Positions 15,950 through 33,942 of a stretch of 36,324 nt of DNA are shown in pieces; position 1 is the first letter of the stretch; the number at the start of each line of letters is the position of its first letter. The position numbers and the translations under genes are program-made. The notes under the pieces were generated by a model. The model was not told the origin of the DNA. It worked only from the letters and a program-made list of their open reading frames with translations, and did no database searches. Where the stretch lies: positions 1 to 36,324 of the IMG/VR virus record IMGVR_UViG_3300046817_000404; one strand, 5' to 3'. Source of the stretch: a virus.

Positions 15950-17776
15950 CTATCCTCCGATATCCACACTAGGAATGGCCGCCAGTATGGTCAGCGGCAG
16001 CGGATCCGATTGTCGCACGATAAACCGCCCCGTCTGTCCCCATGTGGAACTGATTCCCATTTCAATCTTGCCGGTAATCAACGCGTTGGGATCGTTGGCT
16101 TCGTTGGTGTTGAGATCCTGGCCACGCAGACTCAGGTTATCCAGATCCGGCCCGGCATAGATCCCGCGGGAATTCTTCACGATCAGCGTGATCACGTTCA
16201 CCTTTTTCTTCGAGGCCGCGACCTGGGATCCCGCCTGATCCAGATCGAGCGTCTCGAAATCCGAAAGGTAGGGCAGGCCACCATGAACCACCGCGTAGAA
16301 ACCACCCAGACTGACGCGTCCATCCACGACGATCTGCGGCTCGAGCACGTTGCCGTCTGCCAGCAGGCCGATGGTCTCGCCCTCCAGATGATCGAACCCG
16401 GACACCTGGTCTACCGCGCGGTCCCAGTCGGTGACCGCGGTTACGCGCAAGGTGCCCGGTACTTCGATGTTGGGCCGGCCAGACACCGCCGTCGTGCTGG
16501 TGTATGCCGTGATCTTGATGCGGACCTCGTCGGTGGATCCGTCTGAATTCGGCGCCCGCATGACGATTTCGTTGCCCACGTCCAGCGCCTGGAAGAATGC
16601 CGCCGAGGCCGTCAACGTCAGGTCGGGAACCTCCGCGATGTCCGGAGGCGGATCTCCTGTGATCACCCCCCAGTCCGTCCCAGATAAGGTCATGGTGGTG
16701 GCAGTTTGATTCCTCCCGTCATAGGTCAGGAACGAATCCAGAAATGCCGTATCGGCGTTCCGCTTCACATCCGCCACGATCGGTGAGGAGAATCTCTCGA
16801 TATACCGTTTCTGCACCCCGCCGATAGTGCGGCGCACCACAACGTAGACGGCATCCTCCAGACCCTCCGGAACCACCTGAACGTCCTCGTAATACCCATC
16901 GGTGTCGTGCCGGTGCCACGCCCAGATCTGCTGTTCCTTGATGTAGGTCAGTCCCACCATGACGCCATCGGAGCGAACGAAGTAGGCAATCGAATGCGGT
17001 ACCCGTGCGTAGGCTGCGCGCACCAGCGTGAATCCTTCAAACAGATGCGCGGCGAATATCGTCAGATCGGATCCCACAAAGCTGGCCGCATTCAAGTCGA
17101 ACGCCATGTCGCGGACCATCGAACCCAGCCGTTCCACGTAGAGCATCGACTCTCCGATGATCAGCGGAGGAACCCACGAGGCGCCGAACCCGCTCTGCTG
17201 CTTGGGGTTGATCTCGGTAGGCCGGAGCACCCCGGCCGCATCTCCCATGACCCGCCGGATGCTGTTTCCGGTGAGCACCAACAGAAGATCTAACGTCCCG
17301 ACCAGATGCCGCACCTCTTGCACCTCGACGTCAGCCATGGAGAACTTGATCGCGTCATCGGCACGAATGGGCGACGAGATCGTGAAATTCGTGAACAGGC
17401 CTGTACGGGATCCGAAGACCGACTCCGGCTCGTTGTTGGTGTTGGCCACCATCAGCCGTTGCTGATAGTAAGTCGAGACCGCGGGCCGATTGTCACTGGA
17501 ATCAAGCGCATCCCGAGTCACCGGAGGCTGAACCGCCGGATCTGGAACAATGCCGTCGTCGGTGAATGTCCGATCCGGCCCCGCCACCCCCACAAACCCG
17601 TAGATGCTGTTGATGGTTTTGTAGATGTTGTAATAACGGGCGTTGGCCACCGCGTCCCAATTGATGACCGCGGGAGCATCGGCGGTGGCGTCGGCCACCG
17701 GACCGATCGGCGTCGTGGGCACGCTCTCTTCAAAGGTGTTGTCGTCGATCGAGGTGACCAGGTAAAAGCTGCTCAC
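15950..17776 (-). CDS. Tail nozzle protein, C-terminal part (T7 gp12/tubular protein B-like), separate gene
   Basis: 608 residues starting at a GTG that overlaps the previous TAG by one base (TAGTG), with GGTGGAG just upstream as the ribosome binding site. It opens directly with SSFYLVTSIDDNTFEESVP, which in intact nozzle proteins is an internal stretch (YxYVVTAVDxxTGEESLPS type). It then follows the family closely: YYNIYKTINSIYGFVG, TYYQQRLMVANTNNEP, RTGLFTNFTISSPIRADDAI, VRHLVGTLDLLLVLTG, WAWHRHDTDG and VVRRTIGGVQKRYIERF. The usual N-terminal domain is missing here and lies at the start of the gene upstream. The two products should co-assemble into the hexameric nozzle. No canonical slippery heptamer was seen near the junction, so restart at GTG is the simpler reading. 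Confidence 0.85.
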   Translation of the reverse strand: MSSFYLVTSIDDNTFEESVPTTPIGPVADATADAPAVINWDAVANARYYNIYKTINSIYGFVGVAGPDRTFTDDGIVPDPAVQPPVTRDALDSSDNRPAVSTYYQQRLMVANTNNEPESVFGSRTGLFTNFTISSPIRADDAIKFSMADVEVQEVRHLVGTLDLLLVLTGNSIRRVMGDAAGVLRPTEINPKQQSGFGASWVPPLIIGESMLYVERLGSMVRDMAFDLNAASFVGSDLTIFAAHLFEGFTLVRAAYARVPHSIAYFVRSDGVMVGLTYIKEQQIWAWHRHDTDGYYEDVQVVPEGLEDAVYVVVRRTIGGVQKRYIERFSSPIVADVKRNADTAFLDSFLTYDGRNQTATTMTLSGTDWGVITGDPPPDIAEVPDLTLTASAAFFQALDVGNEIVMRAPNSDGSTDEVRIKITAYTSTTAVSGRPNIEVPGTLRVTAVTDWDRAVDQVSGFDHLEGETIGLLADGNVLEPQIVVDGRVSLGGFYAVVHGGLPYLSDFETLDLDQAGSQVAASKKKVNVITLIVKNSRGIYAGPDLDNLSLRGQDLNTNEANDPNALITGKIEMGISSTWGQTGRFIVRQSDPLPLTILAAIPSVDIGG

Positions 17777-19746
17777 TACACTCCACCCGCGTAGGTCTCT
17801 GCGAACCCTTCGCAGATGTAAATGTCGCCGTTGTTGAAGACCATGGGCCCCTCGGCGGTGGTTACAAAGGCACTGGAACCGCCGGCAGGAATCAGAACCG
17901 AGACGGTATTCACATCAGAACCAATCATCGTTCCCGTGAATGCTGAGGCGGCATCCGGAGTGATGCTGAACCCGAGGGGAACCTCGATGTAATTCCCGCC
18001 AGCCGACCCCTTATCGACAATCTGGAACGCGAAGTAGATCCAGCGGCCATGCGGCACAAGCTGAGTTCTTCCAGTGGCCCCCGCGATGGTGGTAAATGCG
18101 CCCGTATTGGGCACAGGAACCACCGTGAATCCTTCCCAATCTCCGTCGAATGCCGGGGTGTCCTTGGTGCCCCACCAGGCTGTGGCGCCGGTCCCCAGCA
18201 CGAAGCAGTCGGGATGCCCGGAGTTCTCCTCGTCGTAATAAGTCACCCGGTTGCTGTAGGAGGGATACGCGAATCCGTCACTGGTACCGGAAGCCTGGAT
18301 GGGATCCGATCCGGAATGCTCAATGATGACCTCATCCCGCACCACGTTGAAGCCCGCAGGACCGCCTGCCATGATCCAGCACCGGTTTGCCAGCCGCACT
18401 GGGTGTCCCACGAGGCGACTCTTCAGGATCGTGTTGTTGTCGCAATTGACCGAATAGATCGCCGGAGTATTCTTGTACGCGATCTCGATATCGAGCTTAT
18501 TCTTCGAGAAATTGGCCGCGGCGGTTCCCGCCCAATAAGCACCATATCCATCAGCCTCCCACTGCCGGCCGCAGTAGTGTCCCATCCCATCCTGCATATC
18601 GCAGGGATCGCCGAGCGTTGTCACCACGCCGGCATACCAGCCCGTCTCAGTGGCATTGAAGCACGAGAAATCGAAATCCCAGTCCCGGTGCGAACGCGTA
18701 TCCATGCCACGAGCAGCAAGCCCATTGCAGTCCATCGTGAAGCCCTTGAACTTGACGCAGGACAGATACTGATTCCCAGCCCCTTCCACAGGAGCGGATT
18801 TCCACATGCTCTCGCCAGGACTTTGCGCGGCGCCGATCCACTTGATCACCGTTCCCGTTGTCAGTGGGCCGACATTGTGGATACCCGACTTTCCCGCGCC
18901 GCTGATCTCGACGTTGCTGTAATCGATATCCGAGAGTGATTCGCTGATCGCATAGACACCCTCTGGCATGAACCCCCTCTTATTGGCGCTGAGACGCACC
19001 GCATTCAGAAAGTTCAGAAACGCCGCATCATCAGCAGTTTCGCCATCTCGAAAGGGATCGAAGTCGAGTAGATTGATTTCTCCCGGAATCCGTTCATCAG
19101 GAGGGGGAACCACGATCCCACCACCCCCACCGCCGGGCGCTCCTATCGCTGGACCGTAGAGCTTCTTGGTGAGGGTCCAGGCCGTGTGCGCCAGCCGCGT
19201 TAACTCTCTGGTCTCGTACCCCCGGTGTGTGATCGTGACGACGTCACCAGATTGGGTAAACCGCAGCATGTCGAGATCGGCGTTCAGATAAGGCGTCGGG
19301 ATCTCGTAGATATCGTCTGTGAGTGGATACCAGTAAGCCGAGTTCGGAGGCGTATGGCTGGTGTGAGCCAACACGCAGTAGTAGTTCACGCCCGCCAGTG
19401 AGACCAGATCCGCCACCGCATAGGTGGTTCCCGAGTCCCACGCCGGCACGTCGGCCACCACGATCTGAGATCCGTTGCGAATGAAACGGAAATACTCCGG
19501 ACCGATCTCGATCAGGTAGGTTTGGTCCTCGTTGAAGACGAACCGCGTCATCAGCAGGACGTTGGCCGAATTCTTTGCCGCATCGATGAATCGGTGGCCG
19601 GGACGCCGCGTCACCCCACCCTGACGCATGACGATGAAATTCCTGCAGGTCTTCAAGCCCGTCTGATACTTGGCCTGGTCTGCACGTCCACCAATATCGG
19701 TGGAGATTTCCCCGCCGGCAAAGGCCCGCTGGATAACGTCAGGCAT
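17776..19746 (-). CDS. Tail nozzle N-terminal part fused to a pectate-lyase-type beta-helix tailspike
   Basis: 656 residues. Residues 1-200 are the N-terminal part of a tubular tail protein B: AGGEISTDIGGRADQAKYQ, GLKTCRNFIVMRQGGVTRRPG, and then TITHRGYETRELTRLAHTAW and LYGPAI. Residues about 103-142 form a chitin-binding-like insert (AWDSGTTYAVADLV to SAYWYPL, CBM5/12 pattern). A GGGGGG-IVVPPP linker (205-216) leads into a beta-helix of the pectate lyase 3 type: DGETADDAAF, GFMPEGVYAIS and EISGAGKS. The C-terminal 110 residues look like a tailspike-end beta-sandwich. In ordinary nozzles the chain would continue from LYGPAI into the next gene. The fusion puts a receptor-binding or glycan-cleaving domain on the tail tube. 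No catalytic residues could be assigned. Confidence 0.85.
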   Translation of the reverse strand: MPDVIQRAFAGGEISTDIGGRADQAKYQTGLKTCRNFIVMRQGGVTRRPGHRFIDAAKNSANVLLMTRFVFNEDQTYLIEIGPEYFRFIRNGSQIVVADVPAWDSGTTYAVADLVSLAGVNYYCVLAHTSHTPPNSAYWYPLTDDIYEIPTPYLNADLDMLRFTQSGDVVTITHRGYETRELTRLAHTAWTLTKKLYGPAIGAPGGGGGGIVVPPPDERIPGEINLLDFDPFRDGETADDAAFLNFLNAVRLSANKRGFMPEGVYAISESLSDIDYSNVEISGAGKSGIHNVGPLTTGTVIKWIGAAQSPGESMWKSAPVEGAGNQYLSCVKFKGFTMDCNGLAARGMDTRSHRDWDFDFSCFNATETGWYAGVVTTLGDPCDMQDGMGHYCGRQWEADGYGAYWAGTAAANFSKNKLDIEIAYKNTPAIYSVNCDNNTILKSRLVGHPVRLANRCWIMAGGPAGFNVVRDEVIIEHSGSDPIQASGTSDGFAYPSYSNRVTYYDEENSGHPDCFVLGTGATAWWGTKDTPAFDGDWEGFTVVPVPNTGAFTTIAGATGRTQLVPHGRWIYFAFQIVDKGSAGGNYIEVPLGFSITPDAASAFTGTMIGSDVNTVSVLIPAGGSSAFVTTAEGPMVFNNGDIYICEGFAETYAGGV

Positions 19747-21021: not shown

Positions 21022-21181
21022 ACGAATCCTCGGTGACGCGTGGGCCGGCGTCGACCTTGAATACCGTCATGAAGATCCCGATGACGAACAGGGTGAACAT
21101 CACTACCAACACCGCGCCTGTTGTGGACAGAGACTCCAGAAAGTGAAACCACATCGACATACGTGGGCCTGGATCGTGCAT
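20921..21181 (-). CDS. Small single-pass membrane protein
   Basis: 86 residues. The ATG overlaps the preceding TGA (TGATG) and has a strong GAGGAGG ribosome binding site five bases upstream. One transmembrane helix covers about residues 20-42 (TGAVLVVMFTLFVIGIFMTV). The C-terminal half is charged and then Gly/Pro-rich (GGSPGPGPG). It directly follows the four signal-peptide genes and precedes the tail genes. It may be a second holin or an envelope protein acting with the exported proteins; the sequence does not decide between them. Confidence 0.65.
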   Translation of the reverse strand: MHDPGPRMSMWFHFLESLSTTGAVLVVMFTLFVIGIFMTVFKVDAGPRVTEDSFIALTTAAGTRSLQKKEDREHPPIGGSPGPGPG

Positions 21182-23112
21182 CAGTGCCTCCTCAAAGGTA
21201 TCGAACCGGCATTTGTAAAAGGGGAAACCGCAAACGAGTTCACCGCAGTCACCACCTCAGCACTGGTGGTCACCGTCAAAGAACGAGTGGAGACCAGCGC
21301 ATTCGACGCAATGGTGACGTTGCAGGCCAGATGAGTGGCGTCCGCCACCGTCGTGCTGCCGACAGTGATGCCGGAGCCCGAGAAGCTGCACACCGATGTC
21401 CCATTCGAGAAATGAGTGCCGCTTCCCACGACTGCGATCGCAAGCACATTGCCCTGCCTGGAATCTTCGGGCAGCACTCCCGTGATGCTGATCGGAGAAT
21501 TCACTGTGAAGACGTTCGTTCCCGTGGCCACCTCGCTGGTGGTGGTCATCGTCAGGGAGCGAAGACCCAGCGTTGCACCACCGCTGAGCGTCGCGTTACA
21601 GACCCCGTGAGTGGAATCAGAGACCGTCGTGCTGTTGATCGTGATCCCGGTTCCGCTCATCGTGCAGACTGTCGTGCTGTTGACGAAGTTCGTCGATGCG
21701 CCAACGACGTTGATCGCGGCCGTGTCACCTTGCGAGGCAGACGTCGGGGAGATCGCAGAGATCGTGCTGGGCGTCCCCGCCACATCTCCTGCGTTGTGCG
21801 CGCCGGCATCCCAGGCGCCCATCGCCGGGCGGGGTTGGTTCGCGAACGTCGTACACAAATAGAGCAGGATCCCCGAGCAGAGCGATGTCCGGTTGACTCC
21901 GTAACCTGCTGCAGCACTCATCAATGAGATCCGGAAGTCCCCAGCCGCAGCATCCACGAACGACGGATTCACGCCTTTTAAATCATTGCTCTCTGTGACT
22001 GTGGCATTGCCGCTGATCATCGAATAATCGTCAGTGCCGTTCCCGTAGAAGATATTGTTTTCAAGAATCGCCTTGGTGCAGGGTTGCCCGAAAAAGGCCA
22101 TGCAATCCGCAGCTGAGGTACCGTTGTTGTAACCCAGAGCTACCGCGGACTGCTCATTGAACGCGATGGTGTTGTTGCGTAGACCGCAAGGATTCGCAAA
22201 ATCCGGAACTGAACCATCGCTATAAAGGCCGCATCGGTAGTCGATATCGGCACCGTTGCCGAAATTGTGGTCGATGATCGAATTGATCACATGGTTGTCT
22301 GAGCCGCTACCCGCGACGACGCCGCCACCACCGTGCTGAACAGGGTATAGATGCCCCACATAGTTGTGGTCGAGGCGCGCTCCAGTCACCACGTTGTGGC
22401 TGACCAGCGTGCCTCCGTTGTACATCTGAATGCCGTACCCGGTGTTGTCGTGGATCCGACCGCCGATCATGATGCTGTGGTTCCCGTGCCAATAGATCCC
22501 GTGATCCGTATCGTTGGCCGCGATGGTGCTGGAGTGGTCGACATTTAGATTCAAAAACTCCCAGTCGTCGCCATCGAAAATGACTCCATTCGAAGCGGAG
22601 TGCGTGACCGTTACATTGATAAATTTAATGTGGTCGCCACCGCCGTTGATCATCCCGGTACAAGTAGGCGGAACGGAGCAATGCGACTTGCTGCCCGTTG
22701 TTCCATCGAAAATGAGATCCTGAATAATCCAGTATTGCGGGAAGTGGTCCACGCCATACTGACCGTTGAAGGTCATCACGTTGTCGTAGCCGTCGTTGGT
22801 TAGGGTTACGGTGTCGCCCGGCCATGCGGCCAGTGTGTTGGCATTACCCCAAGACGTCCCCGACATTGTGCCACCATACCCAATGTTGTAGCCCATCTGG
22901 AGACCTTCGTTGTAAGTGCCGGTGCGAATGTAACAGGTGTCTCCCGGTAACATCTGGTCGAGACAGTGGCGTATCGTGAGCCATGGATTACCAAGGCTAC
23001 CCACGCCAGTCATGTCGTTTCCTGCCTTAGTGACCACATAGGTCGACGGAGTCCTACCCAGGCACACCTGCAGCGTCACCGCGAAGAGCAGGAGGGCGAG
23101 GAGCTTTCTCAA
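21181..23112 (-). CDS. Exported beta-helix protein with two Cys-paired TIG-like repeats
   Basis: The TTG at 23112 is chosen as start: it overlaps the previous stop (TTGA), has AAAGGA upstream, and opens straight into a signal peptide (MRKLLALLLFAVTLQVCLG). The 643-residue product continues with a right-handed beta-helix (about 25-420) carrying many N-x-I/V turns such as HNYVGHLYP and NNTIAFNEQSAVALGYNN. Two TIG/IPT-like repeats follow, at about 450-540 and 541-630, each with a Cys pair (VCTMSG with GVCNATL; VCSFSG with ACNVTI). At least eight further Cys occur in pairs in the beta-helix. Disulfides fit export. Similar TIG repeats are frequent in Acidobacteriota surface proteins. A secreted glycan-binding or depolymerase role is inferred; catalytic residues are not evident. 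Confidence 0.8.
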   Translation of the reverse strand: MRKLLALLLFAVTLQVCLGRTPSTYVVTKAGNDMTGVGSLGNPWLTIRHCLDQMLPGDTCYIRTGTYNEGLQMGYNIGYGGTMSGTSWGNANTLAAWPGDTVTLTNDGYDNVMTFNGQYGVDHFPQYWIIQDLIFDGTTGSKSHCSVPPTCTGMINGGGDHIKFINVTVTHSASNGVIFDGDDWEFLNLNVDHSSTIAANDTDHGIYWHGNHSIMIGGRIHDNTGYGIQMYNGGTLVSHNVVTGARLDHNYVGHLYPVQHGGGGVVAGSGSDNHVINSIIDHNFGNGADIDYRCGLYSDGSVPDFANPCGLRNNTIAFNEQSAVALGYNNGTSAADCMAFFGQPCTKAILENNIFYGNGTDDYSMISGNATVTESNDLKGVNPSFVDAAAGDFRISLMSAAAGYGVNRTSLCSGILLYLCTTFANQPRPAMGAWDAGAHNAGDVAGTPSTISAISPTSASQGDTAAINVVGASTNFVNSTTVCTMSGTGITINSTTVSDSTHGVCNATLSGGATLGLRSLTMTTTSEVATGTNVFTVNSPISITGVLPEDSRQGNVLAIAVVGSGTHFSNGTSVCSFSGSGITVGSTTVADATHLACNVTIASNALVSTRSLTVTTSAEVVTAVNSFAVSPFTNAGSIPLRRH

Positions 23113-24602
23113 TGTCCGTGCATCCTTTCGCGGTTCGCGCCGCTGGGATTCACCGCCGGCACCCATTCGTGTGGACCGATGTCGAATGTCCCCGTGCGCG
23201 TCGTCCCATCGATCGTGTTGGTAAACGTGCCAGACTCATCCGTGCCCGTGTCGACCGTATCTCCCGAACCATTCTGTGGAGCCCACAAGTGCGCTTCGTC
23301 ATAGCCCTGCATGGTCGCCTGAGCGGACGTCTGGATGAGGTTGGTGAGATGCGTGTAGGTGCCCGAGATCAGATCCGGCCGACTCAGTAGAACCGTTCCC
23401 GATGGGCCGATGACTTGGTTATTATTAGCGGTCAGGTTGCCGACAAGTTGAGGGCCCGTGCTTGCGCCCGATCGATCCCCGATCCGGATCATCTCATTGG
23501 TGTCTTCCTCAGTCGCGTAGATATAGGCTACGTTGTTTAGGATGACCGCGTTTCCCGGACCTTCACACGGCAGAACGTGCATCGACCCGGTGCAGTAGTT
23601 GTAAGGATCAACATGGATCGGACCTTGACTGGAAATGTTCCCAGAGAAGATGTTGTTGTACACGTAAGCGGTGGCCCCAGCCCGGATATTCGGATAGGCC
23701 ATCTGGGAATTGCTCGACACATCCCGGAATCTCGAATTGCGGATGTAGCCCGTGGATTGCCCCAGCGTTGACGGATCCATATAGACGCCGTTGCCATGGA
23801 ACGGTTCGGCTCCAGGAGACACGTTGCCTCCAGGATACCCAATGTTGTACTGGTAGCCATAGTTCCAGTCGATTGTGAACAAGACGGCGCAATGGACGTC
23901 GTGAATGGTGACCCGTGTCATCACCCCAATAAAACGCGCCGCGAGTCCAGTCTGGGTATTGGATCCCGTGTTTTCTGAGTTTTCGATAACGCTGTCCGTC
24001 AGTGTGACCGTAGGAGCATCCGCGGCCACGTCATCGTAGCTATAGACAACGATGCCGCCGTGCGCCCCATCTGTTCGTGGCCCAGAGCCTGGCATCTGCC
24101 ATCCATGAATATAGAGATTGCTCATCGCGATGTGGTGCGAAGTGTATAACTCGATGATGCCCCCTTCATCAGGCGTGGCCGCCATGATGTAGGACATCTC
24201 GATTCCATCGATCGCGAAGTAGTGGTTTGCAGAAAACTTCGTCACATAGGAAGCCACATAGTTCACCGACCAGATTGGCTTAACCCATGAGCCTCCCGCA
24301 AACCACGAATGATCCCCAGAGCTATAGATAATGGGGTGACCGGATGTTCCGTTGAAGGAGGGCTGTAGAATCCCCAACCACGTCTCTCCTCCCTTAAAAA
24401 TGTAGGTGTCATCTCCCGCCGGTGTTAATGCCGCAGGAACTCCAGTCGCTTCTATGAATCCGGGAGCCCATCTCCAGGCCGTCCCGTGAGTTAATCCATC
24501 ATTGGAGTCACTGCCGGAAGTGCTCACATAGAAGGTTCGTGTCGCGAACGCAGGGACCGCGCAGAGCAGGAACGCCACGACAAGTAGTCCGCGCTTCAGC
24601 AT
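23109..24602 (-). CDS. Exported beta-helix protein (polysaccharide-lyase-like fold)
   Basis: The start is set at the ATG at 24602, which overlaps the previous stop (TGATG) and gives a textbook signal peptide, MLKRGLLVVAFLLCAVPAFA, with an AFA cleavage site. The mature 477 residues begin TRTFYVSTSGSDSNDG, the usual opening of secreted right-handed beta-helix proteins (YYVSPSGSDxNxG type). Many short-turn repeats follow (HHIAMSNLYIHGW, VTLTDSVIENSENTG, VTIHDVHCAVLF, GYIRNSRFRDVSSNS, AVILNNVAYIYA). The C-terminus, FDIGPHEWVP, also fits this class. The next gene overlaps by four bases. It could bind or cut host or biofilm polysaccharide; no active site was assigned. Confidence 0.8.
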   Translation of the reverse strand: MLKRGLLVVAFLLCAVPAFATRTFYVSTSGSDSNDGLTHGTAWRWAPGFIEATGVPAALTPAGDDTYIFKGGETWLGILQPSFNGTSGHPIIYSSGDHSWFAGGSWVKPIWSVNYVASYVTKFSANHYFAIDGIEMSYIMAATPDEGGIIELYTSHHIAMSNLYIHGWQMPGSGPRTDGAHGGIVVYSYDDVAADAPTVTLTDSVIENSENTGSNTQTGLAARFIGVMTRVTIHDVHCAVLFTIDWNYGYQYNIGYPGGNVSPGAEPFHGNGVYMDPSTLGQSTGYIRNSRFRDVSSNSQMAYPNIRAGATAYVYNNIFSGNISSQGPIHVDPYNYCTGSMHVLPCEGPGNAVILNNVAYIYATEEDTNEMIRIGDRSGASTGPQLVGNLTANNNQVIGPSGTVLLSRPDLISGTYTHLTNLIQTSAQATMQGYDEAHLWAPQNGSGDTVDTGTDESGTFTNTIDGTTRTGTFDIGPHEWVPAVNPSGANRERMHGH

Positions 24603-25381
24603 CAGTTGACCCCCGTGAGTAGCGAGGTGGAATCGGAAGGCGGCGGCGCAGAATCGATTCCTTTGTAAACCGCCAGACCCGAGGTTACCAGGTAGGTTGG
24701 AGGCGTCGTTCCCGTCCACGTCGCGGACGTCGTCTCAGTCGAAGTTAGAATCTTGTAGGCCGTGGATTCAATGAGAAACCCTCCGTTATTCAGTTCCAGG
24801 CTGGTGTATCCCGATGTCGGATCTCCAGCCACGGTGTCCGTCTGTCCGTTCAAAAGTGCGAGAACAAAAGCATTGTTTGTTGTATTCCCTGCACCACGAG
24901 TCGCCGTGCAGCTGGCCGAGGCATCGGTATCGCACACCGCAGAACCATCAAACCATACAGACGTCGCGAGATTACTGACCTCGCAGATTGTGTAATTTGT
25001 GAACAGCGCACCGTCTGCCGTGACGCTCATACTGACGGTGAACGTTCCGCTGGCTACCGCCAGCTTGCTGCTTGCAAACCCGAGTAGAGCACGGTTATTA
25101 AAATCATTGTAGGGATGGTTCAGGTCGATCTGATAGGTATTTGCACCACCTCCTTGATTATCTGAAATGGAAGCAAACGATGCAGTAGAGCCATCTATAC
25201 TCGCCCTCGATCCCGCGACACCGGCAATCAAATGATGCCCCACTGTGGGAGTGGAGTCGAAGGAGACGCTTATCGAATTCGTGAAGTCATCCGTCGCCTT
25301 GCACTGGACAACTGCCGGTGCTGCAGCCCACGCCGGCACACCGTAAGCCAGGATCAGGATCAGAAGTGCAATTCGTTTCAT
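24602..25381 (-). CDS. Exported beta-sandwich protein, paralogue of the appendage N-domain
   Basis: 259 residues with a GGAG ribosome binding site and a signal peptide (MKRIALLILILAYGVPAWA, cleavage after AWA). The mature domain runs in the same order as residues 1-235 of the appendage protein at 1526-3052: a VG-x-x-LIAGVA strand, SISDNQGG...TYQID, a GTFTVSMSV strand, TICEVSNLA, a VLALLNGQTDT strand and a final SGLAVYKG strand. The Cys at VQCKATDD, TICEV and VCDTDASASC suit an oxidising compartment. No enzyme signature is seen. It lies between two other exported genes with stop-start contacts of 0-6 bases, so it is co-produced with them. Confidence 0.75.
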   Translation of the reverse strand: MKRIALLILILAYGVPAWAAAPAVVQCKATDDFTNSISVSFDSTPTVGHHLIAGVAGSRASIDGSTASFASISDNQGGGANTYQIDLNHPYNDFNNRALLGFASSKLAVASGTFTVSMSVTADGALFTNYTICEVSNLATSVWFDGSAVCDTDASASCTATRGAGNTTNNAFVLALLNGQTDTVAGDPTSGYTSLELNNGGFLIESTAYKILTSTETTSATWTGTTPPTYLVTSGLAVYKGIDSAPPPSDSTSLLTGVN

Positions 25382-25387
25382 AGTCTC

Positions 25388-27109
25388 CTACCTGTAAAAG
25401 AAGTCCGCTTCCAAGGCCGTCGACGGATTACCGTTTGCCGCCGCCGAAGTCGTGCAGGCGTAACTCATCGCCGCTGAGAACTGAATGCCCTGCGAGATCT
25501 CCAGATTGGCCGCCCGTGATTCTGTCGAATTGCCTGGAATCCGAAACGACAGTTGAGGAACGGTCGTGCCCACCGTGACCGAGCCGTACGCCACGTTGTA
25601 GATGTGAACCCACATATCCGCAGTGTTCGGGTTGGTGATGAAGTAGCCACCAAATACGCCCTGTGAGGCTTTGATAGGCTCAGGCGTGCTGGTGCAAGGA
25701 ACCCCGCTATCCGCCGCCGTCGCGTTGATGGAAGACCAGCCAGAGGTCGCCGCGGGCAGGATCGTGACCGGGATCGTCACCTGGTCGCTGGCCACCGTCA
25801 CCCGCAGCGAACCTGTGCCCGTGTTGCCCGCTCCCATCAGTGGCGTCACGCCATTGATCTTGCCGATGTTGGTCGTCAGGCGATGGTCGGTGTCGAGCAA
25901 GGGATACGCCACCTGGCCATTGGTGAGAGCCGTGGGCGAACTGTAATACACCGCCCCAATGGGCACGGGCGCACTGCACACCGTCGTTTCTGTCGCGCAG
26001 TCGGTGATGCTGGACGTGGAGGTCACTGCAAAGCCCGAGACGCCCGGCGCCACTTTCAATTCACCGCGGTTGGTCAACTGGAAGTCTGGGAACGTCTGTC
26101 CGTCCGTTTTTGTGGGCTGCGTGGCGTTGTACACCATCGCCGGAGCCGCCGCGATGTTCACGTCCGCCGCATAGATCGAGCCGCTGGTGTTGGTGCCCGT
26201 CTGGCCGCGCAAGGTGCCACCGACATTGATGCCCTGGTAGTCGGCATCGGAAGGAACGGCTGATGCCGTGGGAGAGGCCGCTCCGTTGCCGGCGGATCCA
26301 GAGACGACGCTGACCCGCATGGCTCCCGCGAGATCCGTCGAGCAGGCCACCTGGTACGTATTGGTGTAGGTCGGCGCCGCGGTCGTTGCCACGCATGGCA
26401 GCGTTCCGAGATTGGTAGTGCTGGGAATAGCAGTGTTGTTGCCCTTCGCGCCCGTGATTGCTGCTACAGAACCGAGATCGGTGATGACGTGGCCGATGAC
26501 GTTGGTTCCGGCCGGCAACGCGTTCGTGATCGCCGTGACTGCACCCACTGTTGCAATGGATGAATCTGAGGCTGTCGCTACGCGTATCGTTCCCGTACCC
26601 GCCGCACCCAAGCCGCGGTTGACCGTGTTCCCATTGATCTGGGTGATGTTGACGTCACCACCCCCGCCACCACCTCCCCCACCACCGGTTCCGTTGGCAG
26701 TCGTTCCCGTCCAGGCCGGAAATACCCGGCCCGTTCCTGTCGAGGCCGTGATGTTGACTCGCACGTAAGAGTAGTTCCCAGAGCCAGTCACATGGCAGCC
26801 AGTGGTATCGGTGGATGAACCGATGACCGTGGCTCCCGCATCGGTCTGGTCGTTGGATCCCTCCAGATTGATCGAGAGCACGGAAAGCGTTCCACTCAGG
26901 CTGCAGTTCAGTTCATGCTCGTACACGCCATATTGGTTGACCCGGTACCACTGCGATTTGCCCACACCCTGCATCGAGGGTATCGAGATGTGGTAAGCCG
27001 ATGGACTCACGATCGGGACGTTATCCACCACTCCGGTGGTCTGGCCGAATCCGGCAAGAGGCAGCAGCCCCACAACAAACAGAACCGCAAGTAATCGTTT
27101 GATATTCAT
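25388..27109 (-). CDS. Exported phage-structural-like protein, Gly-rich, eight Cys
   Basis: 573 residues with a signal peptide (MNIKRLLAVLFVVGLLPLAG, probably cut near FGQ). An N-terminal beta domain (about 25-150) ends in a run of ten Gly. Segments such as VNRGLGAAGTGTIRVATASD and GAGNTGTGSLRVTVASDQV follow; these GTGxxRVxxASD elements recur in phage structural proteins. The C-terminal domain (about 455-573, VFGGYFITNPNTADMWVHIY) looks like a carbohydrate-binding or capping beta-sandwich. About eight Cys are spread in pairs (TDCATETTVC, for example). Phage-type virion sequence behind a Sec signal is unusual. The ATG overlaps the fibre gene's TGA (ATGA). Its role is unknown. Confidence 0.75.
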   Translation of the reverse strand: MNIKRLLAVLFVVGLLPLAGFGQTTGVVDNVPIVSPSAYHISIPSMQGVGKSQWYRVNQYGVYEHELNCSLSGTLSVLSINLEGSNDQTDAGATVIGSSTDTTGCHVTGSGNYSYVRVNITASTGTGRVFPAWTGTTANGTGGGGGGGGGGDVNITQINGNTVNRGLGAAGTGTIRVATASDSSIATVGAVTAITNALPAGTNVIGHVITDLGSVAAITGAKGNNTAIPSTTNLGTLPCVATTAAPTYTNTYQVACSTDLAGAMRVSVVSGSAGNGAASPTASAVPSDADYQGINVGGTLRGQTGTNTSGSIYAADVNIAAAPAMVYNATQPTKTDGQTFPDFQLTNRGELKVAPGVSGFAVTSTSSITDCATETTVCSAPVPIGAVYYSSPTALTNGQVAYPLLDTDHRLTTNIGKINGVTPLMGAGNTGTGSLRVTVASDQVTIPVTILPAATSGWSSINATAADSGVPCTSTPEPIKASQGVFGGYFITNPNTADMWVHIYNVAYGSVTVGTTVPQLSFRIPGNSTESRAANLEISQGIQFSAAMSYACTTSAAANGNPSTALEADFFYR

Positions 27110-28778: not shown

Positions 28779-29225
28779 TTACAGAATCGCGGATGCAGTA
28801 TGGAAATACTGACGATCCTCGATCATGGACTGCAGCGTCAGCCAGCAGTTCAAGGTAACCGTTGGCGTGTCGCTGGCGCTCACATCGGCATAGATGCCGA
28901 GATAACGCTTGCGAGGCCAGCCCGGAGGAATCGGGATGTACTCCAGATGGCCCAGAGCCAGATCGGTGTAATCGATCGTGCGCTGGAGAATGCTGTCCGC
29001 ACTGGAGAGATCCGCGTTATCCGATTGCTGCAGGATGAACGTGTAGGTCTCAGTGCCGGACGTGTGATCGGCGGCCACCGCGACACTGATGGCAAAGCAC
29101 ATCGGCTCACCCGTTCCAATGTGGCGGGCCAGTGCCAGATCTTCCAGATCGATGATGCCCAACAGTGGCGTGTCGACGGTGATGGCTTGCGCGGTTGCGA
29201 CTTGAAGCAGGATATCTTTCAACAT
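28779..29225 (-). CDS. Capsid cement/decoration protein (Bbp16-like)
   Basis: 148 residues with an AAGGAG ribosome binding site. The layout matches Bbp16-type cement proteins of BPP-1-like phages: an N-terminal helix MLKDILLQVATAQAIT, then GIIDL...RHIGTGEPMCFAISV, a beta strand region TYTFILQQSDNADLSS, and KRYLGIYADVS near the end. It sits directly downstream of the major capsid gene, as in that family. It stabilises the capsid from outside. Hairpins flank it on both sides, which could let it be made at its own level, as expected for a protein needed in hundreds of copies. Confidence 0.8.
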   Translation of the reverse strand: MLKDILLQVATAQAITVDTPLLGIIDLEDLALARHIGTGEPMCFAISVAVAADHTSGTETYTFILQQSDNADLSSADSILQRTIDYTDLALGHLEYIPIPPGWPRKRYLGIYADVSASDTPTVTLNCWLTLQSMIEDRQYFHTASAIL

Positions 29226-29302: not shown

Positions 29303-30298
29303 CTAGGTGACGACAGTCTCCGCGTTCAGCATGCAATCTAGACGGCGTACCGGCACATCGTCGAAGAACATGACGCGCTTGCCCGCCACGTTATCGAACG
29401 TCAAGCCGCCGCCTGAGGTCACATTTTCACGGACCTGTTTGCGAAGGAATCGGCCCACCGTGCGGTTCATGTAGATCACGTCACGGCCGTCTCCCAAGGG
29501 CAGGCATTCCAGCGCATGCTCCAGCAGTTCGATCAGATCCGCGGGAGTCGTGTTGCTGGTCAGGTTCGACACATCGATGTTGCAGATGCGAACCATGTGG
29601 CGCCAGTCCGGAGTGGCCAGACCGATGTCCCAGGTCCACTGATCGACCAAAGCCTTCATCAGCGCGCCCGTGACGCCGTTAGCGTTCTGGACCATCTGTT
29701 CGCCCAGGTCGAAATGCTTGACGCCGGCCGAGGATCCCTTCGGGAAGAACCCGTGAACACCATCGCCCCATCGGATGACGAGGATCGACGCGTTGTCACC
29801 GCCGGTTCCGCCGGCATTGATCACGTTCTGGGAATTGCCAGCCGTCAGCGAAGACATGCGCGGCATAAAGCCGGTGAATTCACTGGGCGACACTCCCGCG
29901 TTTCCGTAGATCAGGGTGGAGGCCATCTCCTGATTCATGCCTTCCAGCTGCATGCGTCCCTTCTGCATGCTGAACTGGGCCTTGTTGCCACCGAAGTTGG
30001 CCAGCTTGGCATCGATGATGGTCCAGGCTTCGAGCATCGCGGCCTGCTCATCAATCTGGGCCGTGGTTCCCTTGCCGGGAATCACACCCTGATTGTACGA
30101 ACGCCAGTAAGCGGGAGGCAAAGACGTCTCGACCGTCGAACGATGGCCGCCGGGCAGGTTGCCCTCGATCGCCACCATGTCTTCGAGAATCGGATTGCTG
30201 GCCTTGAGAAGCTCGACGAATCGAGCGGTGCTGCCATTGGGATCCAGGGTTTTGGCCTGGTCCAGCAGCGTCGGATAAGCAGAATTCAATACTGTCAT
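29303..30298 (-). CDS. Major capsid protein (Bbp17-like, HK97 fold)
   Basis: 331 residues, the usual length of this class. Hallmarks are YPTLLDQAKTLDPNGSTARF, LKASNPILEDMVAIEGNLPGG, TSLPPAYWRSYNQGVIPGKG, and the C-terminal DGRDVIYMNRTVGRFLRKQV and VMFFDDVPVRRLDCML. These correspond to the major head protein of BPP-1-type and related podoviruses. AAGGAG lies seven bases before the ATG. Scaffold is upstream and cement downstream, the standard order. It assembles in the cytoplasm around the scaffold to form the icosahedral shell. Confidence 0.9.
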   Translation of the reverse strand: MTVLNSAYPTLLDQAKTLDPNGSTARFVELLKASNPILEDMVAIEGNLPGGHRSTVETSLPPAYWRSYNQGVIPGKGTTAQIDEQAAMLEAWTIIDAKLANFGGNKAQFSMQKGRMQLEGMNQEMASTLIYGNAGVSPSEFTGFMPRMSSLTAGNSQNVINAGGTGGDNASILVIRWGDGVHGFFPKGSSAGVKHFDLGEQMVQNANGVTGALMKALVDQWTWDIGLATPDWRHMVRICNIDVSNLTSNTTPADLIELLEHALECLPLGDGRDVIYMNRTVGRFLRKQVRENVTSGGGLTFDNVAGKRVMFFDDVPVRRLDCMLNAETVVT

Positions 30299-30309
30299 GA
30301 GGGGACTCC

Positions 30310-30927
30310 TTAGACTCGGTTAGGAAAGAAGATCGCCTCGTCAGACTTCGGTGTGCCCTCGCCACCCCCTCCGGCAGGAGGAGCACCACCCAGACCCTTG
30401 TCTTCTTTCATGATTTGTGCCAGTGCCGCGAATGCCGCAACCAGTGGCGGATACGCCGAGATCGCCGCATAAGCGGGACTCTCGCGCAACTCCTTACCAA
30501 AGGGCGTGGATTCGGGCAGAACTCGGTCCAGTACGGTCTTGACGGCAATGCTGGTCTCGGCATACTTGGCGCCGCCCAGAGTCTGGTCGGCCTTCAGTTG
30601 TTCCTGCCAGAGCGCAATATTGGCGTCGGTCACTTCTTTGGCCCGCACTTCCGCAGCCTCGTAGGCCGCATGGCGCTGGTCGAGAAGCAGGACAGCCTGA
30701 TCGTTGGGCAGATTCTTCTCCTTCGCAAAGGCAAGGATCTGGTCCACGTCGGCCTGGATCGCCCGAGAACCCTCGGGAATCTTCAGGTCATAAACAATCG
30801 GTGCTGCCGGTGGAGTCCCCGATGGCGGCGCCGCCGGCGGTGTTCCCGCGGGAGGCGTCACTGGAGGAGTTACTACCGGAGGCGTCTCTACGGGAGGCGC
30901 CTCGGGCGGTGGTGTGATCGTGCTCAT
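30310..30927 (-). CDS. Capsid scaffolding protein
   Basis: 205 residues. The first 43 are a Pro-rich, probably disordered tail (PPVTPPAGTPPAAPP). The body is helical and charged (YDLKIPEGSRAIQADVDQIL, FAKEKNLPNDQAVLLLDQRH, LKADQTLGGAKYAE), which is typical of scaffold proteins encoded just before the capsid gene in this phage group. The C-terminus has a Gly-rich patch and then KSDEAIFFPNRV. It is expected to leave or be degraded on DNA packaging. No protease motif was seen, so it is scaffold rather than protease-scaffold fusion. Confidence 0.8.
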   Translation of the reverse strand: MSTITPPPEAPPVETPPVVTPPVTPPAGTPPAAPPSGTPPAAPIVYDLKIPEGSRAIQADVDQILAFAKEKNLPNDQAVLLLDQRHAAYEAAEVRAKEVTDANIALWQEQLKADQTLGGAKYAETSIAVKTVLDRVLPESTPFGKELRESPAYAAISAYPPLVAAFAALAQIMKEDKGLGGAPPAGGGGEGTPKSDEAIFFPNRV

Positions 30928-30937
30928 AGAATTCCTT

Positions 30938-31324
30938 TCATGAATTGTCTTCAGCCTCGGATTTCTCCTTGGCTGTCCTTTGGGCTGCTTTGTGCTCCAG
31001 CTTCTGGCGTTTCTCGTCCTGCTGGGCCTCGGTCATCATCTGGAACAGACGCTGAGGATCGGCCTCCGCGATCTTTGCCATGATGAAGTGGCCCACGTCC
31101 TGCTTGCCGGCGTTGACGAAGGTCATGTTCGCCTCCGGATCCACGACAGAATTAAACGTTTTGCAGTAGACCAGAACCTCCCATAGTGCTTTGCGGCATG
31201 CTGCAAGGGCGGCAGACTCACGCCAGGCCGCAAGAGAAACCTCGGAATGTCGTTCGGACACATCCCGCTTGGCTTCAACTCGGTTCCGGTCTGCTGCGTT
31301 GTCACCGTTATCCCTGCCGCTCAC
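30938..31324 (-). CDS. Bbp19-like structural protein
   Basis: 128 residues with a GTG start and a GGAGG ribosome binding site. The core at about 43-102 (CRKALWEVLVYCKTFNSV, then FVNAGKQDVGHFIMAKI and RLFQMMTEAQ) follows the Bbp19 family pattern of W-x-x-L, C-x-x-F, an F-N-E/A-G-x-R/Q-x-V-G stretch and a final acidic helix. The N- and C-terminal tails are charged and probably disordered. The family sits between portal and scaffold; here a secreted-protein gene separates it from the portal. The exact role in the head is not established. Confidence 0.75.
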   Translation of the reverse strand: MSGRDNGDNAADRNRVEAKRDVSERHSEVSLAAWRESAALAACRKALWEVLVYCKTFNSVVDPEANMTFVNAGKQDVGHFIMAKIAEADPQRLFQMMTEAQQDEKRQKLEHKAAQRTAKEKSEAEDNS

Positions 31325-31333
31325 AGTCCCTCC

Positions 31334-32212
31334 TTAGCTCGTGCAACGAATGAACGCGAATGGTCCCTTGGCCGCCGTGAATGTCGTGGGTGGCGCAATG
31401 AACCGCGGAATGGTTCCGAATACCGACGTCAACTCTGAGGCCGTGACGTCGACGAACGTGGACGTCGCCATCTTCTGCAGGTGCCCGGTGACCGCATCTC
31501 CCTGGAAGGAAACGTAATACCGCCCAGCGGGAAGATCGACGGGAACCAGAAGACTCAACTCCTGGATGGTGCTGGCCGTTCCCAAGGTCGTACCCGCGAC
31601 CAGCGAATTGCCGAGCAACTCACCCTTGCTATCCCGAAGGATCGCGATGACCTTGGTGGTTCCACCCGTGGTTCCGACCAGATAGCCAATCGCAGTGGCA
31701 TGGCAGACAGTCTGAACGTAGACGTCGGTGATCGGTTCCAGCGTCACCGAGAACGCTGCCGACGCCCCATTTGCGGTGTAAGGGAATGCCAAGGGCACGT
31801 TGGTGTAAGCGTACTTGCCGGTATGAAGCGAGAGATCCGCCAGGGTGTAGGCGATCGTCCCGGACGTGAACGCCGAGGGGAACCAGCGGAACCAGACATC
31901 CCGCTGCTGAACACCGGTCTTGACCTGCACGTTGGCCGTGTAATTGGGGCCGACCACGCGCCAGGTCACCTGGCCGTCTACGCTCATCTGGATCTGGTTG
32001 GTGGCCACCCACGTCCCGGTGATGGACATCACCAGCTGATTGCCCGCCTTCACAAAGCAGGCGGTTGTGCCCACGCCGGCCGCTGTCTTGGAACTCGACA
32101 CCGAGCAGGTCTGCGCGTAAGCGGTTTGGCCCAGTCCTGCCAGCAAAGGCAAGCCGAGCAACAGATACAGGAGAAACTTATACAGGAGAAACTTATTCTT
32201 GAGTTTGATCAT
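31334..32212 (-). CDS. Exported protein inserted between portal and Bbp19-like genes
   Basis: 292 residues with a long signal peptide: basic N-region MIKLKNK, a hydrophobic stretch containing KFLLY twice in a row, and a cleavage site near AYA. The mature protein begins QTCSVSSSKTAAGVG and has about four Cys. It is beta-rich throughout (GNQLVMSITGTW, QMSVDGQVTWRVVGPNY, LLVPVDLPAGRYYVSFQGD). The last element, GRYYVSFQGDAV, resembles carbohydrate-binding or adhesion beta-sandwiches, but no family is certain. The ATG overlaps the portal stop (ATGA), so it is translated at a rate tied to portal. Its place inside the head module is abnormal. Confidence 0.75.
   Translation of the reverse strand: MIKLKNKFLLYKFLLYLLLGLPLLAGLGQTAYAQTCSVSSSKTAAGVGTTACFVKAGNQLVMSITGTWVATNQIQMSVDGQVTWRVVGPNYTANVQVKTGVQQRDVWFRWFPSAFTSGTIAYTLADLSLHTGKYAYTNVPLAFPYTANGASAAFSVTLEPITDVYVQTVCHATAIGYLVGTTGGTTKVIAILRDSKGELLGNSLVAGTTLGTASTIQELSLLVPVDLPAGRYYVSFQGDAVTGHLQKMATSTFVDVTASELTSVFGTIPRFIAPPTTFTAAKGPFAFIRCTS
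32166..32195 (-). repeat. Perfect 2 x 15-bp tandem duplication in a signal peptide
   Basis: Two exact 15-base copies lie at 32166-32180 and 32181-32195. They encode KFLLY-KFLLY and lengthen the hydrophobic region of the exported protein's signal peptide. The perfect identity suggests a recent slippage event. Confidence 0.85.
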
Positions 32213-33942
32213 TGGATACCTCGAATGCCCGTGACCAGTTGCGCCAGAGCATTGTCTCCAGTGGTTGGGGATTGGCTGAGATCCTTGGCGGATCCCGCAT
32301 ACTTCGCCGCGACATCCGCGGCGTGCTGCTGTTGGAGCATCTGTTGCTCCTGAGCAATGCTCTGGGCGGCGACATCGGGATCGACCAGAATCTTGGGATT
32401 GATGTCGAGGATATCGCCAATCTCCTCAATGGCAGCACCGATATCCACGTAGTGCCGTGCATCGGGGAACACCGGCGCCGCGTTCACCACGGTCGTCAGC
32501 AGGCGGTCGACGCCGACAATGCCACTGAGGCGCTGGGCGGTGGCCATAATCGAGGTGTACTCGACCTTGAGCGAGACGCCATGGAGCTCAGGAGGCGCAT
32601 CGGGAATGAATCCCCGTCGATCCATGATCGCGAACGTGCGATCGACAAGTGGATCGAACCCTTCATCGTTGAACCGCTCGTAAGTGGGCCCGAGGATCAG
32701 AGACCGCTCCTGCGCGCGCTGTTCCACCTCAGTGGCCGTCATCTCACCGCGTTCTGTGGAAAGCATCGAGAGGAAGAAGTTCACGAGGAACCCATCCTTG
32801 ATCTGGTCGCGGTCCTGCTGATTCCACAACTCGAGTTTGTCCAGCGCCACGTTGACCTCGTGCAGAGGCCGAATACCCTGACGGCCGGGACCGTCCGCAG
32901 TGTACGTGATGTTGCCGGGCAGCATTGAGATGGACGACTGTTTCAATTCGACGGGAGCCTGGAGTGCTGGCGAAACCATCTTCGCCAGGGCCTTGCCTCC
33001 CTCTTTTTTCGCTTGCTGCAGGCCCTTGATGGCGCCGAGTGTCGACATGCCCGGACAGTCCGTGCCATAGGTGTCCTCACCGGTAACGTCCCACCGCGGC
33101 GCGATGATCGGGAACTCATCAAAGCCCTGCTCTCGAAGGAACTTTCCTTCGTTGCACCCTTGCTCATACCAACAGGACGCGAACTTCTTGTACTTCCCGG
33201 AGAGCATGCGCGGGTTGTAATCCATGTTCGGCGTCACCATCCAATCGACCGGCACATTGGTACCGTACTGCCCTCGATCCCAGAGTGTCTTGACCGTCTG
33301 TGACAGGTTCCTCCAGTCGATATCGTTGGTTCCCGGAATCACACCGAACTTCTCGACCAGCTGAAACACCGTCATCGGGTATTCCCGATAGAACGTGTTC
33401 ACCAGGCCGCGCTCATTCAATGCCATGGCAAAGGATCCGATCGGATAGGAATAGGCGCGGAGTACCGACTCCTCATCTTCGAGAATGCCCACGGCCGCTG
33501 ATGCAAACAATCCCGCGTCCCCATACATCATGGGCATCACGTTGTAGATGTTCGACTTGGCGAACACCGCCAGCATTCTACGCGTGACCTCGTGCAACCA
33601 GCTTTTGACAGGACCGTACTTGGCCATATCCTGATCGAGGATCGTCAGCTTCATCCAGGGCCGCGCCGGAGACGTCATGCCGGCATGCATTCCTGCTTTC
33701 AGAGTTCGCAGTGACAGAGTGGCGGTGGTATCGATGATGTTCTGGTTCCGGCGGTCACCCTTGTTTTTGTCATCCACGAACCAGCGAGTGCGCCGCGGCG
33801 AGACCATCTTGGCCAGTTCCGACCAGTGAACTCGGAACGTCGAGCGGTCGTTGAGCATCTCGGCCTGCATGATGCCGTACTTCTCACGTTTGGTGAGTCC
33901 CGTGGTCTTATCCGCGACGTCCCGGTATGAAGCCAGTTTCAC
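32209..33942 (-). CDS. Portal protein (podovirus head-tail connector)
   Basis: 577 residues, the usual size, starting with GTG directly after the TAA of the previous gene. Family features include FRVHWSELAKMVSPRRTRWF, the RRNQNIIDTTATLSLRTLKAGMH stretch, MTSPARPWMKLTI, and later TATEVEQRAQERSLILGPTYERF and DRTFAIMDRRGF. The C-terminal region is Gln/Ala-rich and helical, as expected for the barrel. The dodecameric ring at the capsid vertex takes terminase on one side and the tubular protein A ring on the other. Confidence 0.9.
   Translation of the reverse strand: MKLASYRDVADKTTGLTKREKYGIMQAEMLNDRSTFRVHWSELAKMVSPRRTRWFVDDKNKGDRRNQNIIDTTATLSLRTLKAGMHAGMTSPARPWMKLTILDQDMAKYGPVKSWLHEVTRRMLAVFAKSNIYNVMPMMYGDAGLFASAAVGILEDEESVLRAYSYPIGSFAMALNERGLVNTFYREYPMTVFQLVEKFGVIPGTNDIDWRNLSQTVKTLWDRGQYGTNVPVDWMVTPNMDYNPRMLSGKYKKFASCWYEQGCNEGKFLREQGFDEFPIIAPRWDVTGEDTYGTDCPGMSTLGAIKGLQQAKKEGGKALAKMVSPALQAPVELKQSSISMLPGNITYTADGPGRQGIRPLHEVNVALDKLELWNQQDRDQIKDGFLVNFFLSMLSTERGEMTATEVEQRAQERSLILGPTYERFNDEGFDPLVDRTFAIMDRRGFIPDAPPELHGVSLKVEYTSIMATAQRLSGIVGVDRLLTTVVNAAPVFPDARHYVDIGAAIEEIGDILDINPKILVDPDVAAQSIAQEQQMLQQQHAADVAAKYAGSAKDLSQSPTTGDNALAQLVTGIRGIQ

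Follow-up and report, generated by a model that had tools for sequence, protein, structure and literature searches.

How does a gene for a protein with a signal peptide come to stand in the head module of a virus, directly behind the portal gene? The question is raised by a viral record 36,324 bases long, analyzed here over its whole length (the window), in which a first-pass annotation had described a gene, here termed exp5, as breaking a fixed portal–Bbp19 block. The genes around exp5 were identified as follows.

32209..33942, minus strand: portal (head-to-tail connecting protein; PF12236, 1.2e-133)
30938..31324, minus strand: Bbp19-like protein, weak match (PF25181, 8.7e-4, below cut-off; phrog_528, 5e-7)
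30310..30927, minus strand: scaffold/protease-type gene (phrog_458, 1e-18)
29303..30298, minus strand: major capsid protein, GP7 type (PF20911, 8e-106)
28779..29225, minus strand: cement protein, homolog of BPP-1 Bbp16 (33% identity, E 5e-9), the next gene after the capsid gene

The premise of a fixed block proved to be wrong. Among the relatives found via the capsid protein, Bbp19 usually comes directly after the portal; other genes were found between the two in L021, L033, L051, L070, and L073, a Bbp20-like gene in L028, and in BPP-1 itself bbp20 sits between bbp21 (portal) and bbp19. Because BPP-1 and several relatives carry genes there, the interval is known as a site of additional genes, and the break seen in the window is not unusual. 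BPP-1 Bbp20 has the same head-module place as exp5 but differs from it in its length of 109 aa, in having no signal peptide, and in that no sequence relation was found. A phmmer search with mature exp5 against all ORFs of the loci, including the Bbp20-like protein of L028, gave no such match, and exp5 was rejected as a member of the Bbp20 family. Homology with the L021 protein at the same place was likewise not found. The latter is the product of a small beta-sandwich-type gene (L021 6480-6866) following the portal with an ATGA overlap, and its homolog in L019 (7872-8237) lies downstream of the capsid gene, i.e., one protein is found at two head-module places. Bbp16, the cement protein of the BPP-1 head, has a jelly-roll fold (PMC3863775). 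In the window, the Bbp16 homolog is a different gene (28779-29225); hence, exp5 is not the cement protein, membership in the Bbp16 family was ruled out, and exp5 stands as a separate protein that is exported by prediction.

The exp5 gene itself was resolved into the following features.

31334..32212, minus strand: exp5, putative exported two-domain protein of 292 aa (near-identical copies in eight viral contigs, ortholog in L085)
32219..32222, minus strand: GAGG, Shine-Dalgarno-like, about 7 bases upstream of exp5, within the end of the portal gene
32209..32212, minus strand: ATGA, overlap of the exp5 start with the portal stop (sequence)
32114..32212, minus strand: signal peptide, residues 1-33, predicted cleavage between AYA and QTC (sequence and heuristic scan)
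32165..32194, minus strand: two head-to-tail 15-bp units coding for KFLLY-KFLLY, inside the signal peptide (alignment with L007)
31838..32113, minus strand: N-terminal mature domain, residues 34-125, GTW-type beta-sandwich (hhalign probability 92-96)
31337..31837, minus strand: C-terminal domain, residues 126-292, a widespread phage domain, weakly DUF4082-like
32105..32107, minus strand: Cys36 (conserved in L085)
32057..32059, minus strand: Cys52 (conserved in L085)
31703..31705, minus strand: Cys170 (sequence)
31343..31345, minus strand: Cys290 (sequence)

The N-terminus of exp5, MIKLKNKFLLYKFLLYLLLGLPLLAGLGQTAYA followed by QTC, was found in a heuristic scan to combine a charged n-region with a hydrophobic core free of interruptions and an A-x-A site, which by sequence are the features of Sec export and SPase I cleavage. 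All signal-peptide calls given here were made with our own heuristic, and two positive labels (L106 and L168) were assigned by eye. The copies of exp5 in the eight viral contigs are mostly identical, with that of L007 differing by 20 amino acids. In this comparison dN/dS was 0.19 for exp5 and 0.08 for the portal, and judging from this ratio exp5 is under purifying selection. The signal peptides of the two differ by four amino-acid changes, two of them Lys to Arg. Both Lys codons of the KFLLY-KFLLY repeat, one per 15-bp copy, are CGG (Arg) in L007, and the two copies look as if they were evolving together.

The order of genes in L085 (TerL, a GNAT-type gene, the end of the 33943 gene, the portal, and the exp5 ortholog) is that of the window, with 47-51% identity over most genes (TerL, 47%; portal, 48%; GNAT-type gene, 51%; exp5 protein, 50%). 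AGGAGG precedes the ortholog at the position matching GAGG in the window. The signal peptide of the ortholog, MKKFLLLFTLIVGLCIAANPQPAFA with QAC after the predicted cleavage site (mature start QACSVSS), looks unrelated to that of exp5 and is equally good. L085 is the decisive case for the signal, whose sequence differs while its properties are kept. The exp5 ORF and its signal peptide are not due to chance, because dN/dS against L007 is 0.19 and because the gene, its place, and its signal are kept in L085. These data confirmed the initial description of a signal-peptide protein overlapping the portal by ATGA. The same gene with no signal peptide at this place, which had been named as the finding that would overturn that description, was searched for in relatives and not found. 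Export of exp5 by way of the predicted signal peptide is regarded as highly likely.

Direct searches of Pfam, PHROGs, PDB, cultured phages, and prokaryote genomes with exp5 returned nothing usable, and no relative was found in a close-match scan of one genome for each of ~85,000 prokaryote species. The lack of a match in cultured phages would suit a host gene for a secreted protein that was recently captured as cargo and has no role in the phage. The outcome of the prokaryote scan and the kin that both domains have in phage proteins (described below) speak against such an origin; it is already disfavored because the place is shared with L085, where it is kept at 48-51% identity, and because selection is purifying, and we give it hardly any credence.

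The C-terminal domain was traced via L084-L086 to 42 loci and then in a further scan of 80 loci. The alignment for the first wide scan contained two made-up variant rows, used only as bait to widen the patterns; subsequent alignments contained real sequences only. An AlphaFold2 model of the domain, with pLDDT mostly above 90, was a beta-sandwich, and its best match among solved folds was 9jwb_Z (E 2e-5, probability 1.00), a capsid chain of cyanophage A4 that is ORF25 of Anabaena phage A-4L. Further matches were the Bxb1 tail tip, chitosan-binding and other carbohydrate-binding modules (CBMs), and, among predicted viral structures, minor tail proteins. The adhesion-type beta-sandwich suspected in the first-pass annotation is thus in agreement with the structure search. 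ORF25 resembles exp5 in fold and is a phage protein of ~200 aa; unlike exp5, it has no signal peptide (MSIAWYRELYG...), is resolved in the capsid, and is encoded next to a tail fiber gene. Relatives of the domain that lack a signal peptide are tail-type proteins of 190-220 aa, and the domain also ends a pectate-lyase-type tailspike (L202). The C-domain proteins tested had no informative family annotation for this domain; three of them matched PF13313 (DUF4082) weakly, with E values of 1e-4 to 2e-3, all below the curated cut-off (19.6 vs. 28.4 bits for L085), and exp5 itself gave no match.

The N-terminal domain of exp5 and L085 was found by profile comparison to be related to virion-type domains of L023, L062, L053, L051, and L074 (hhalign probability 92-96; at most 2.7 in 20 column-shuffled controls). 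The proteins of L051, L053, and L062 are encoded downstream of the capsid gene, and in the 755-aa protein of L023, encoded just after Bbp19, the first domain is the one akin to exp5, the remainder being tailspike-/spike-like. Modeling of the exp5 N-domain was poor, and the AlphaFold2 model obtained from two sequences (pLDDT 35) was discarded. Taken with the model of the C-domain, these comparisons predict that exp5 consists of two beta-sandwich domains, both with kin in phage virion-type proteins. The related domain of L074 (4831-6255) is a GTW beta-sandwich inserted into a nozzle-type protein. A nozzle-type (T7 gp12-like) protein is also present in the window, where by reading only it looks split over 15950-17776 and 17776-19746 (minus strand): the upstream ORF couples a nozzle-like N-terminal part to a spike region of beta-helix/pectate-lyase type, and the rest is carried by the following ORF, which starts at the stop of the upstream one.

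Tracing of the C-terminal domain also led to a second group of signal-bearing proteins, encoded directly after the coat gene in about 50 distinct environmental P22-type viruses. The distinct C-domain proteins numbered 89, ~55 of them with a signal peptide, in a scan that was seeded with signal-bearing proteins and whose counts with and without the signal are not natural frequencies. Nearly all the signal-bearing ones occupy the slot immediately downstream of a P22-type coat gene (PF11651/phrog_283), which is itself preceded by a portal and a scaffold gene of P22 type. The point of the counts is the link of slot to signal: among the labeled rows, a signal peptide was called in 50/50 proteins in the coat slot and in 3/29 elsewhere, with exp5 and L085, which follow the portal, set apart. 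Control genes of the same loci received the heuristic call in 19 of 467 cases, several of them plausibly exported. The C-domain of exp5 was matched to that of the coat-slot protein of L116 (hhalign probability 97.4, with tblastn and alignment support), and the N-domains of the two groups were unrelated by profile comparison. exp5 itself is placed not directly after a P22-type coat gene but after the portal of a GP7/BPP-1-type operon. Other large proteins with good signal peptides were observed in the P22-type viruses (L142 3936-5798, L130 10729-12960, and L113 6471-8690), and by these heuristic calls phage-protein export in such viruses does not seem to be limited to the coat slot.

The strongest rival to an exported adhesin is that the protein belongs to the virion and is completed only after leaving the cytoplasm: exp5 and the coat-slot group would be head or neck decoration adhesins that are exported, oxidized, and joined to particles at or after lysis. 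The head-module position in two podovirus groups is consistent with it, as are the small signal-less proteins that cultured P22-type relatives encode directly after the coat gene; the best PDB match, being a capsid component, counts in its favor and against the adhesin. Assembly after export would, however, be unprecedented, as we know of no such case in tailed phages, and the phage of the window already has its Bbp16-type cement protein. We regard this alternative as unlikely.

The distribution of cysteines follows that of the signal peptide. Exactly four cysteines are present in 48 of the 55 mature signal-bearing C-domain proteins. The two cysteine columns of the C-domain are both filled in 49 signal-bearing proteins and singly in none, and the pair occurs in 0/26 of the signal-less relatives; the two N-domain columns of signal-bearing proteins are filled in 49/49 and 50/50. 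Mature exp5 has four cysteines (36, 52, 170, and 290) and L085 four within the known part of the protein, and Cys170 and Cys290 of exp5 sit at columns other than those of the coat-slot group or L085. Since the paired cysteines occur together only in signal-bearing members, disulfides formed in an oxidizing compartment are proposed, and from these patterns those of exp5 are considered likely. Taken together, the exported proteins of the window contain 1.53 cysteines per 100 residues vs. 0.45 in the others (mature counts 4, 8, 4, 3, and 14). It might be argued that the hydrophobic N-terminus is an uncleaved membrane or virion anchor, e.g., one that holds portal-nucleated assembly at the inner membrane, given that exp5 adjoins the portal and that some phages, e.g., T4, assemble their heads at the membrane. 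Such an anchor is very improbable in view of the A-x-A cleavage motif followed by Q, which is kept in diverged members (+1 was Q in 35/55 heuristic calls), and of the confinement of paired cysteines to signal-bearing members. exp5 is very probably exported and disulfide-bonded, and the group appears to be a previously unnoticed set of exported, probably disulfide-bonded head-block proteins, as judged against the libraries and open-access papers searched; no paper dealing with virion-type phage proteins that have signal peptides was found in that literature.

Clear signal peptides were called for four proteins of the window, namely exp5 and those at 25388-27109, 24602-25381, and 23109-24602; a fifth candidate at 21181-23166 has a signal-like stretch and an uncertain start. 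The homology test suggested by the first-pass annotation was carried out by profile comparison of exp5 with the other four, and none was detected. The accompanying claim that exported genes had entered the operon at least twice, or that one had been moved, was not upheld: separate acquisition would agree with the missing homology, yet neither a donor nor an empty site was found. In the C-domain tree, exp5 and L085 paired (97) and were placed among signal-less proteins. This quick tree suggested independent gain of the signal in the portal and coat groups; this claim was dropped because the AU test did not reject a single signal-bearing clade (p 0.77) and the tree constrained to one such clade scored better than the quick tree, so that the C-domain trees are compatible with one gain as well as with several. 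Among the other exported proteins, that at 21181-23166 (minus strand), a beta-helix protein, is 77-78% identical in L015 and L017, all its neighbors being 99-100% identical, suggesting exchange of one exported gene. The N-terminal mature domain of the protein at 25388-27109 (minus strand) resembles that of an exported C-domain protein of L184 (6068-7426); the two are 30% identical across 67 aa (BLASTP E 6e-4), with an hhalign probability of only 14.

These neighbors bear on a further alternative, namely that exp5 is an exported glycan binder which, alongside the exported beta-helix proteins (21181 and 23109), targets polysaccharide of the matrix or capsule, aiding exit of progeny from a biofilm rather than masking a receptor. 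The CBM-like fold and the two signal-bearing beta-helix-type proteins in the same operon would be in keeping with such a role, which is nevertheless quite improbable: exp5 has no enzyme domain, and for most of the coat-slot group the flanks examined show no sign of such partners.

The best overall explanation, to which we assign slightly less than an even chance, is that exp5 is an adhesin of virion type that has been adapted for export. It would be a late protein, translated with the portal, secreted through the host Sec system, and cleaved after Ala33, and it would fold outside the cytoplasm into two beta-sandwich domains with stabilizing disulfides. There it would bind a host-envelope ligand, most likely a receptor or surface glycan that the virion itself uses, and by occupying this ligand would stop secondary adsorption and keep released progeny off the dying cell and its debris. 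Where its domains occur makes binding of such a ligand an evenly balanced proposition; masking of the ligand, whether to protect progeny or to block secondary adsorption, is proposed by likeness to T5 Llp, though by another route, and is rather doubtful. Llp is a periplasmic superinfection-exclusion lipoprotein with one disulfide that blocks the phage receptor (PMC9586334). Like Llp, exp5 is phage-encoded and, by prediction from its sequence, exported and disulfide-containing; Llp differs in being a small lipid-anchored lipoprotein and not one of virion adhesion domains. As exp5 has no lipobox, no cysteine being present at such a site in AYA-QTC, it was rejected as an Llp/Cor-type superinfection-exclusion lipoprotein. 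The late-operon place also counts against superinfection exclusion by exp5, which would be made late, and not against progeny protection.

The phage-exported proteins known to us are of three kinds: small lipoproteins, regulators of lysis, and proteins of lysogenic conversion. In the viruses described here, signal peptides and paired cysteines, both absent from the non-exported relatives, accompany virion-type adhesion domains in at least two head modules that are unrelated to each other, and the group combining a signal peptide with the C-domain is common in environmental viromes. We tentatively suggest, at somewhat below even likelihood, that environmental podoviruses widely encode in the head operon (after the coat gene in P22-type and after the portal in BPP-1-type viruses) soluble exported virion adhesion domains, with disulfides of their own, as a receptor or glycan mask that would protect progeny or exclude superinfection; such a phage would be secreting a module of its own receptor-binding type during head assembly. 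If secreted exp5 masks the receptor, it would provide simple protection of progeny; should it become part of virions, some of the particle would be produced outside the cytoplasm, an even stranger outcome.
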